Source of the DNA: Acidimicrobiia bacterium
GTDB taxonomy: Bacteria > Actinomycetota > Acidimicrobiia > Spongiisociales > JAENVV01
DNA length: 34,354 nucleotides
NCBI GenBank assembly: GCA_024637275.1
Contig: JAGXFS010000009.1
Location: 1-34,354, forward strand
Direction of reading: 5' to 3'
Below are positions 30,011 to 32,393 of the stretch, piece after piece. The notes under the pieces were generated by a model, which was given only the letters and a program-made list of their open reading frames with translations, was not told where the DNA came from and made no database searches. Made by a program: the position numbers and the translations under genes. The stretch's first letter is position 1. Every line of letters starts with the position of its first letter.

Positions 30011-30601
30011 CTAGATCTCGCCGAGCAGCTTTTGCTTCTTGGTCGCGAATTCCTCGTCCGTAAGCACTCCGTCGCGATGTAGCTGAGCAAGCGTTGCCAA
30101 CGTACTCACTGGAGTGGCACCCGAATTGAGCGCGGCCATCCGATCCTCACGCGCACGATAAATCAGCGTCTGGATGTCTTCGGGCGTTGGGACGTCGGTG
30201 AATCTCGACTGGCCAAGTTCCCCGGCCGACTCGAGCAACAGATCGCCCGACCCGAACATCCGTTCCAGGAGGCTTTGCGAGAACGCCACGTCATTGATGA
30301 CTTCTAGAGGGATCTCCTTGCCCTGCCTGGCCAGAACACCTGATCGGACGATCACCCGTTCGTTGGTAATCACGTACTTCGTGAAAGCCCATACGGCCAG
30401 TTTGGGAAGTACCACTGCCAGACCGATGACGAGGCCGACCACTGTCGGTATCGGGCCTTGCGCCAGGACCGCCCCGACCACGGCGCCGATGACTGTGAGG
30501 CCACCTGCGATCGCCACCGGAACCGCGATGGCCTGCCAATGCGGGCGAAATTCTCGGATAACAGCTTCGCCTTCGCTGAGTAAACGGGTGGGATATGCCA
30601 T
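30011..30601 (-). CDS. Bacterial PH-domain membrane protein with C-terminal SHOCT domain
   Basis: MAYPTRLLSEGEAVIREFRPHW, two TM helices, TKYVITNERVIVRSGVLARQGKEIPLEVINDVAFSQ, C-terminal LAQLHRDGVLTDEEFATKKQKLLGE. Confidence 0.85.
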   Translation of the reverse strand: MAYPTRLLSEGEAVIREFRPHWQAIAVPVAIAGGLTVIGAVVGAVLAQGPIPTVVGLVIGLAVVLPKLAVWAFTKYVITNERVIVRSGVLARQGKEIPLEVINDVAFSQSLLERMFGSGDLLLESAGELGQSRFTDVPTPEDIQTLIYRAREDRMAALNSGATPVSTLATLAQLHRDGVLTDEEFATKKQKLLGEI

Positions 30602-30662
30602 GGGCCAAACCCTACCGTCATTGTCCAACCCGTGGATGAAAAACGACGCCTTGAACGCGAGA

Positions 30663-31133
30663 AACCCCGAGTAAGTTCCGACCGAAGTCTTCACCCTCTC
30701 GGGGTTGTCTCGTCGCCGGTGGGGGTATCCCGAAGGACTCCTTCACTGGCGTGCACCGTCGCCCAAAGGCTTCGATGCGACCAACTGGCCCGAGGGCCAG
30801 ATGGCAGGCGGTGAAGTCTCCCGTTTCCGCTCGACTGTCACCAGCGTTCGTGTGCTCTTCCTTGCGGTCCAACACAGTCACACTTTGCCCAAAAAGGGCG
30901 GACCCTTGCGGGCCTCGGCGGTCAGTTCGAACGAACCCGAAGGTCCATCCCCCCTTTCCACCTACCGGTCGTTCAGTGGCGCCACCCGAAGGTGATTCCA
31001 GCCGTTCGTCCGGCTGTCCCGTTGCCGGGACTCCGGCTCCGACCCGAGGGCCAGGCCTGTCGCCCGAAGGTTCCAGGTTGCCGGTGCTCTCCGCGAGTCG
31101 CCTCGCTTCGAACAAGAAGAAAAGTAGAGCACC
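30663..31133 (-). ncRNA. Candidate large structured noncoding RNA (RNA-2)
   Basis: Minus strand: begins with GGUGCUCU...AGAGCACC (31133-31126/31090-31083), ends with AACCCCGAG...CUCGGGGUU type stem (30706-30698/30671-30663). About ten internal hairpins, most closed by UUCG, GNRA or CUCG tetraloops. No credible ORF. Confidence 0.7.
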
Positions 31134-31166
31134 AATTCGGAGTTCGCAAGCTGAGAAGGTGGTTAA

Positions 31167-31196
31167 ATTTCGCGACTTGAAAGTAGATTTCGCGAC
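31167..31196. promoter_or_regulatory. Paired TTTCGCG boxes upstream of RNA-2
   Basis: ATTTCGCGAC at 31167-31176 and 31187-31196, exactly 20 nt apart. Confidence 0.5.
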
Positions 31197-31230
31197 CAGC
31201 TCAAAGTTGGTGGATTGGCCAGGAAATCAA

Positions 31231-31290
31231 GGTTAAAAGCAAGAAGCCCTGCCGAGACTCAGACTTGCGCCTGTGCCACTTCAGGGCTTC
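31231..31290 (-). terminator. Terminator-like stem at the 3' end of RNA-1
   Basis: Minus GAAGCCCTG-N30-CAGGGCTTC then TTGCTTTTAACC. The loop is long (30 nt), so termination is not certain. Confidence 0.5.
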
Positions 31291-31440
31291 CCCGCTTTCT
31301 GGAACTCCGCTGCCCGAAGGCCTCGTTCTCCCAGTAGCTTTCACTGATCCCTCTCGGTTTCAGCAATCCGCTCCGTCGCTAGTTCCGGTGAGTTGCCCCT
31401 CCGGCATTCCCGTCGATGCGGTTCAAGTAACGTAACCCAC
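31243..31440 (-). ncRNA. Candidate structured noncoding RNA (RNA-1), possibly separate from or continuous with RNA-2
   Basis: Minus strand: GCC-UUCG-GGC hairpin (31321-31312), CUGA-AA-CC-GAGA-GG-GA-UCAG (31363-31344), and a 9-bp GAAGCCCTG/CAGGGCTTC stem (31290-31282/31251-31243) followed by TTGCTTTT. 5' end is approximate. Confidence 0.6.
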
Positions 31441-31471
31441 CGAGGGCTGACTTGGCAAATTATTCGGCTAT

Positions 31472-31503
31472 CTAGTTTTCGCGAACTAGCAAAAGGTTTC
31501 GCG
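31472..31503. promoter_or_regulatory. Paired TTTCGCG boxes plus CTAGTT-TTCGCG-AACTAG palindrome, upstream of RNA-1 and the nuclease gene
   Basis: TTTCGCG at 31477-31483 and 31497-31503, exactly 20 nt apart; perfect 6-bp arms CTAGTT/AACTAG at 31472-31489. Confidence 0.5.
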
Positions 31504-31570
31504 CTTTCTTGCGAATCGCCCGTCGACATGGGATTTGGCCGGTTTCGATCGATACAACAAATCAGGCGAA

Positions 31571-31601
31571 TGACAAACGTGTCACTCGCTTGTCGTATAG
31601 T
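31571..31601 (+). promoter_or_regulatory. Promoter of the nuclease gene (TATAGT -10) with TGACA-AACG-TGTCA dyad
   Basis: TATAGT at 31596-31601, 6 nt before the ATG at 31608, giving a leaderless configuration; inverted repeat at 31571-31584. Confidence 0.6.
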
Positions 31602-31607
31602 CACCCT

Positions 31608-32393
31608 ATGCCATTAGAGACCCTGTCCCCCAGCCGAGCGAGCGACTTCAAGCTGTGTCCGCAGCTGTACAAGTTCCGGTCGATCGACAAACTCCCTGAG
31701 CCAACCACCGTGCACCAGGCACGTGGAACCACCGCGCACCTTGCCCTTCAGAACCTTTATGACCTGGAACCGGCCGAGCGAACCCCCGAGAAGCTCTATG
31801 ACCTGTTCCGAGAAGCCTGGACCGAGATCCGGGGTGAAGAAGAGTTTCTTGACCTCTTCACGACCATGGAAGAGGAGCGCGACTGGGGCGTCGACAGCAT
31901 GAAACTGTTGGCCAACTATTTCTCGGTTGAGAATCCCCTGGAAGTCCATCCGCTCGAGCGAGAAATGGACATGCTCGAACCACTTGGTGACATCACGATT
32001 CGGGGCATCCTGGACCGGATCGATGAGACCCCTACCGGCGAGCTGATCATCACCGATTACAAGACCGGAAAAGCACCCCCCGAACGCTTCGCCGAGCCGG
32101 CCTTCTTCGCGCTCAAGATCTATGCACTGCTCATTCGGGAGAAGCTCGGTCGAACTCCGGCTGAAGTCCGTTTGCTCTACTTGAACGGTCCGACGCTCTA
32201 TCGACTGGCCATCACGGACGGCCAACTCGATGCCATGAACCAGCAGCTGCAGGCATTGTGGAAAGCGATCGATCGGGCCATCGAGAGCCAGACGTTCCCG
32301 CCCCGGGTCAACAAGCTCTGCGACTGGTGTTCCTACCAAGACCTTTGCCCGGCGTTTGCCGAGGTCACGGCGCCCGCAGCCGCAGTCGGATAG
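31608..32393 (+). CDS. RecB/Cas4-like PD-(D/E)XK exonuclease with putative Fe-S cysteines
   Basis: MPLETLSPSRASDFKLCPQLYKFRSIDKLP, GTTAHLALQNLY, GILDRID, LIITDYKTGK, C-terminal KLCDWCSYQDLCPAF. Confidence 0.88.
   Translation: MPLETLSPSRASDFKLCPQLYKFRSIDKLPEPTTVHQARGTTAHLALQNLYDLEPAERTPEKLYDLFREAWTEIRGEEEFLDLFTTMEEERDWGVDSMKLLANYFSVENPLEVHPLEREMDMLEPLGDITIRGILDRIDETPTGELIITDYKTGKAPPERFAEPAFFALKIYALLIREKLGRTPAEVRLLYLNGPTLYRLAITDGQLDAMNQQLQALWKAIDRAIESQTFPPRVNKLCDWCSYQDLCPAFAEVTAPAAAVG

Follow-up and report, generated by a model that had tools for sequence, protein, structure and literature searches.

A candidate family of tandem, tetraloop-rich structured RNAs in Acidimicrobiia with a promoter common to nrdJ, dnaA and dnaB

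Two tandem RNA genes on the minus strand

The window (the whole stretch of 34,354 nucleotides that was analysed, from an Acidimicrobiia bacterium) carries two RNA genes in tandem on its minus strand, and each of them has a promoter and a terminator to itself. These two gene-like units, with deduced start sites, occupy positions 31503-30655 (minus strand) and are flanked by two protein genes. In the order of transcription of the RNAs, the features are as follows.

31608..32393, plus strand: gene for a PD-(D/E)XK (RecB/Cas4-like) nuclease, divergent from RNA 1 (Pfam PF12705, E 1e-35)
31477..31503, minus strand: RNA 1 promoter boxes, tandem CGCGAAA, 20 bp apart; exact pattern, one of only two in this genome
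31429..31458, minus strand: RNA 1 promoter, -35 TTGCCA (31458-31453), 18-bp spacer, -10 TACGTT (31434-31429)
31234..31422, minus strand: RNA 1, short type, about 189 nt; hairpin array with loops CC-GAGA-GG and GGCCUUCGGGC, long terminator hairpin at its end
31297-31234, minus strand: RNA 1 terminator, a long hairpin and U-run
31168..31194, minus strand: RNA 2 promoter boxes, tandem CGCGAAA, 20 bp apart; exact pattern, the other of the two in this genome
31121..31149, minus strand: RNA 2 promoter, -35 TTGCGA (31149-31144), 17-bp spacer, -10 TACTTT (31126-31121)
30660..31114, minus strand: RNA 2, long type, about 455 nt; branched, with a 5'/3' closing helix and about 10 tetraloop hairpins, then the terminator
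30655..30708, minus strand: RNA 2 terminator hairpin, conserved, 3' flank UUUCUCGCGU; family hallmark, matched by model R1, with covariation in 84 copies
30011..30601, minus strand: gene for a protein with bPH_2 and SHOCT domains (Pfam), directly 3' of RNA 2 and on the same strand

The promoter elements were read from the sequence, and transcription of both RNAs is predicted from promoter and terminator sequence alone. An earlier note on this DNA had described a single RNA of about 780 nt. Instead there are two genes, and a second double-CGCGAAA promoter, at about 31194-31121, lies between them. The 13 minus-strand hairpins listed in that note are all present, letter for letter and in place. 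For the hairpin at 31133-31083, the inner GCGAG-GCGA-CUCGC stands, but the outer stem drawn around it, GGUGCUCU/AGAGCACC, probably does not exist in the RNA because its bases form the spacer and -10 element of the RNA 2 promoter.

The density of tetraloop hairpins, which had been called unusual, is indeed far above chance. Counting UUCG and GNRA loops on 3-bp stems, a 771-base stretch holds 14 minus-strand hairpins and a single plus-strand one, compared with a mean of 1.6 (sd 1.2, maximum 6) when a frame of that size is slid along the other parts of the 34 kb. This loop bias marks the minus strand as the sense strand, as had been argued, and the accompanying remark about the plus strand was correct. 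The sequence CCTTCGGG is also recurrent (each of its eight copies in the window is on the minus strand, and five lie in the RNA stretch; 2.3 expected from shuffles). The folding z-scores are -4.86 for RNA 1 and -5.22 for RNA 2.

Conserved structure and distribution

The proposal that the minus strand encodes a structured non-coding RNA is supported, with covariation among homologs. A search found no match among 4227 Rfam families, in keeping with the suggestion that the class might be new. At the Rfam 15 gathering threshold the whole window gives no matches (GOLLD, ROOL, OLE, HEARO, raiA, 6C, RNase P and tmRNA included), a relaxed search of 30400-31700 returns chance matches only (E 4.8-9), and the related loci yield a tRNA only. 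Kinship with GOLLD, ROOL, OLE or HEARO, which had been considered, is not borne out: none of them scores even in the relaxed search, and the relatives are chromosomal. Protein coding was also rejected. No conserved frame emerged, as the sense frame is open in three members of the genus and interrupted by stops in two of the five, and single-base indels are present. One antisense frame is open in all five genus genomes, which we read as a likely by-product of GC-rich structured sequence. A literature search on Acidimicrobiia non-coding RNA found no paper for the terms used. The best reading is that this RNA family, being absent from Rfam, is new and that its carriers belong to one class of Actinomycetota, the Acidimicrobiia.

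The region aligns across genomes of the genus at 82-94%, with RNA 1 about 94% conserved, and a 52-nt 3' motif recurs among relatives, some match to it occurring in 52 of 99 genomes. In a sample of the class, the terminator model R1 (54 positions) matches 66 of the 71 genomes of the same order. It also matches members of a family in another order (f23), one of which has two tandem copies. A covariance model of the short (type-S) RNA, R2, was built without the window sequence and matches both window units: RNA 1 (31379-31237, E 1.7e-8) and RNA 2 at its 3' end (E 8.6e-18). The exact pattern occurs in 58 stretches of named genomes, whose records are mostly Acidimicrobiia or Actinomycetota (a few of the others say 'bacterium' only, and one says 'Acidobacteria'). 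The class of the relatives is deduced from the named records, and most of the genomes are MAGs.

In a sample of the phylum, strong R1 matches are confined to the order and weak ones lie elsewhere. The weak matches in other classes (G360, G397, G315) were set aside, as they come without boxes or hairpin array, and f57 has a seemingly separate conserved small RNA. That f57 RNA, from the same phylum, starts with GCAGGAGGCAAC, has a CCCCGAG terminator at its end (L319, L320, L321) and gives no credible Rfam match. A viral origin was rejected as well: the terminator pattern is absent from all IMG/VR contigs tested (0 of 2.9 million viral contigs).

One mark of the family is a CCCCGAG...CUCGGGG terminator hairpin with a covarying apical helix. 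RNA 2 carries it, and the RNA 1 terminator has a divergent sequence and a like shape. The covariation that the earlier note had named as a check was found in both the terminator hairpin and the long-RNA fold. Across 84 copies the terminator hairpin is 97.5% paired, with both-side changes in 72 cells versus 12 when shuffled, and its covariation score exceeds those of all 500 shuffles and of all slides. The invariant terminator core points to a putative bound partner, though the invariance is partly a matter of ascertainment, as the search pattern fixes the core. The core can change, as it does in f7 relatives (L123). The long-RNA consensus from five genus genomes has 152 pairs with 97% of cells paired and 9 compensatory pairs. 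Its compensatory cells number 17 versus 7 shuffled and 0-3 slid in these five sequences, controls that are not decisive because kinship inflates the shuffles and a structure drawn from the same sequences favours the unslid version.

A four-hairpin plan is common to the short RNAs. The number of hairpins differs freely from one species to another. Twelve units form a subgroup that was itself defined by the string GGGCCCGCUUUCC; all of them have this same H3 apex, and the stems around it vary. Over 119 units of related loci, tetraloop hairpins number 814 in the sense orientation versus 46 in the antisense (sense, UUCG 299 and GNRA 515; antisense, 19 and 27; shuffled, 12 and 97).

The double-box promoter

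The second mark of the family, a double CGCGAAA promoter with 20-21 bp spacing, is present in the window, and both promoters there have the geometry found in relatives (that of RNA 1 as in most other units). In 100 of the 119 units the spacing of the boxes is 20 or 21 bp. The distance from box to -35 is 18 nt in 117 of 119 and the -35/-10 spacer is 17 or 18 in 119 of 119. The promoter pattern used to pick these units had broader bounds (16-20 nt and 15-19 nt), and the tightness rather than the presence is therefore the result.

The regulon pattern, CGCGAAAN12-15CGCGAAAN17-19TTG, occurs in 62 of 247 genomes of the class, nearly all of them from the same order. A reversed-pattern control gives 0 matches in all genomes of the order and one outside it (G101). 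An R1 terminator lies no more than 1.2 kb away from 84 of the 114 matches in the order. Judged by their downstream frames, the other promoters belong to nrdJ (18), dnaA (3), dnaB (1), a CpaB/CpaE-like pair (3, by eye; no Pfam match in the fragments), a coiled-coil-like protein (2) and PadR/inositol-phosphate synthase (1), and two lie at contig ends. The nrdJ assignment was checked once by Pfam (PF08471), and dnaA and dnaB were assigned by sequence recognition.

A pattern scan of the window's own genome finds the exact double box twice, both times at the RNA pair. Its dnaA has a near-match box pair upstream, 20 bp apart, and nrdJ of the genus has two convergent boxes. In all eight genomes of the order examined, this one and seven others (L233, which is G000:C169, and L234-L240), dnaA is preceded by CGCGAAA boxes. 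A reading of these as variant DnaA boxes was rejected, since ordinary TGTGGA-type boxes occupy sites of their own, close to the start of dnaA and shortly past its end. Beyond the order, the pattern precedes dnaA in f12 and rplM in f24.

Several further observations concern these promoters and their genes. The f23 RNAs have no CGCGAAA in front and carry instead, by eye, the repeats GGATAAG / GGGCAAAAG about 20 bp apart (L161-L168). A CUUCCC motif lies within 60 nt past the promoter in 15 of 28 leaders of CGCGAAA-controlled genes, with examples from nrdJ and dnaB (L247, L250-L252, L254, L256, L311, L313, L318), and is nearly absent from the RNAs. One nrdJ (L281, G026:C1:1598073-1602818) is a single frame of about 2000 aa in which the matched stretches are widely separated, which suggests a possible insertion such as an intein. 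In eukaryotes, E2F sites (TTTCGCGC) and the yeast SCB sites (CACGAAA) control replication and ribonucleotide reductase genes. The CGCGAAA box resembles both, presumably by convergence, and we do not claim homology.

Candidate functions

Comparison across genomes establishes, at the level of sequence, RNAs that are structured, non-coding and tandem and whose CGCGAAA promoter is common to nrdJ, dnaA and dnaB. Because the promoter is common to these genes, one putative regulator probably times the production of the RNAs to DNA replication and to the supply of dNTPs. It would read the double CGCGAAA boxes at the RNA, nrdJ, dnaA and dnaB promoters, and the RNAs would be abundant, long-lived and co-expressed with replication genes.

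The interpretation that we favor, with a confidence that stops a little short of even, is that two tandem, structured, tetraloop-rich non-coding RNA genes represent a new Acidimicrobiia family with a replication-linked promoter, and that the RNAs act in trans as a protein decoy or scaffold. Protein binding, our leading guess for their action, would take place on a surface made up of the stable hairpins, which recur, and of the conserved core of the terminator, and the number of hairpins could then vary freely, as is seen. However, no single short loop motif was found to repeat beyond the generic stable tetraloops, the tetraloops might serve only to protect the RNA and leave the action to a short unpaired segment, and the long-RNA covariation comes from 5 sequences.

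Some known RNAs offer partial parallels for such a decoy or scaffold. CsrB and RsmX-Y-Z RNAs occur in multiple copies with repeated hairpins, and their promoters, which serve them alone, have upstream a dedicated activating site with few other targets. The RNA pair is alike in its multiple copies, repeated hairpins, own promoters with an upstream site, and few other targets, but its loops are closed tetraloops rather than exposed GGA. A sponge for CsrA itself was rejected: CsrA (PF02599) was found in 1 of 13 genomes searched, and not in this one. The raiA-motif RNA (ModT) is a structured, trans-acting RNA of Actinomycetota that is abundant and stable in growing cells (PMC11706538). The RNA pair is similarly structured, comes from the same phylum and may likewise act in trans, but it has no Rfam match and differs in its hairpin-array architecture and double-box promoter.

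A bolder reading, which we regard as possible though rather improbable, is that of an S-phase-like regulon. The CGCGAAA regulator would switch on dnaA, ribonucleotide reductase, DnaB and the RNAs together, and the RNAs, as one of the chief products of the regulon, would gate replication or growth via a bound protein.

It is distinctly less likely that the RNAs form RNA-only homo-oligomers, in which hairpins and loops dock copies to one another to build a protein-free cage or scaffold. OLE, ROOL and GOLLD provide the precedent for such assembly (PMC12286853). Like them, the RNAs described here are highly structured and lack a coding frame, and the long RNA approaches this model in its size, its ornate branched fold with a 5'/3' closing helix, and its very high GNRA/UUCG content. 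However, there is no covariance-model match or Rfam score to OLE, ROOL or GOLLD, and the arrangement here is a short and long tandem pair with replication-gene promoters. The partner RNAs, at about 150 nt, seem too simple to build a cage, the number of hairpins differs freely across species, and the 11-nt GNRA receptor is absent from every unit examined. Moreover, ROOL and GOLLD are phage-linked (PMC12286853), whereas these RNAs are chromosomal.

We give the same low standing to an antisense sRNA acting in trans to adjust the dnaA or nrdJ mRNAs of the same regulon. A precedent is EcpR1 of Sinorhizobium, a stress-induced, base-pairing small RNA tied to cell-cycle regulation, including that of dnaA (PMC4414408). 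The promoter common to nrdJ and dnaA and the CUUCCC just past it in the leaders would fit such a role. The proposed pairing of CUUCCCC in the nrdJ, dnaA and dnaB leaders with GGGGAAG was nonetheless rejected, as this complement shows no enrichment among the RNAs (8 copies versus 15.7 in shuffles). The RNA pair differs from EcpR1 in that no antisense site was found with this one candidate seed. There are also few long unpaired conserved stretches, nearly everything lying in stable hairpins.

An RNA polymerase-binding RNA, as a functional stand-in for 6S or Ms1, appears less probable still. Canonical 6S is missing from the 13 genomes searched (RF00013, 0 of 13, controls positive), Actinobacteria use Ms1 instead (PMC9130861), and a growth-linked promoter and structured RNAs of a few hundred nt would fit. 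However, 6S and Ms1 are each one long rod with a central bubble, while these RNAs are predicted hairpin arrays, and membership of the 6S family was rejected on this ground and for lack of an RF00013 match. The neighbors in the window also differ: a HAD hydrolase gene accompanies Ms1 (PMC9130861), and the two genes flanking the RNA pair, for the PD-(D/E)XK nuclease and the bPH_2-SHOCT protein, belong to other families.

The proximity of the bPH_2-SHOCT gene raises the quite improbable reading of a cis-acting leader or attenuator. In many genomes this gene comes soon after the terminator (27 of 58 related loci), in each case on the strand of the RNAs and never in the opposite orientation. Yet there are up to three complete tandem units with their own promoters and terminators (L031), and in 31 of 58 loci the 1.5 kb downstream contain no gene of this kind, some of these loci being cut by contig ends. 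Finally, a repetitive or mobile piece of DNA, with a terminator-like hairpin that is a DNA structure only, as the near-identical tandem copies in G009 might suggest, is very improbable given the few copies per genome, a neighborhood in which either flanking gene is present in 47 of 58 loci (the nuclease gene divergent upstream in 33 of 58), the strand-specific loop bias, the promoter geometry and the covariation.

The candidate family adds structured RNA to a bacterial class known mostly from metagenomes, and genomics alone gives it a functional address, namely a promoter architecture that is the same as that of nrdJ, dnaA and dnaB. If the S-phase-like regulon were true, these RNAs would represent a cell-cycle RNA of a new kind and not solely a new family. 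Two questions become testable as a result: what reads the CGCGAAA boxes in Acidimicrobiia, and whether an RNA takes part in the control of replication in these bacteria.
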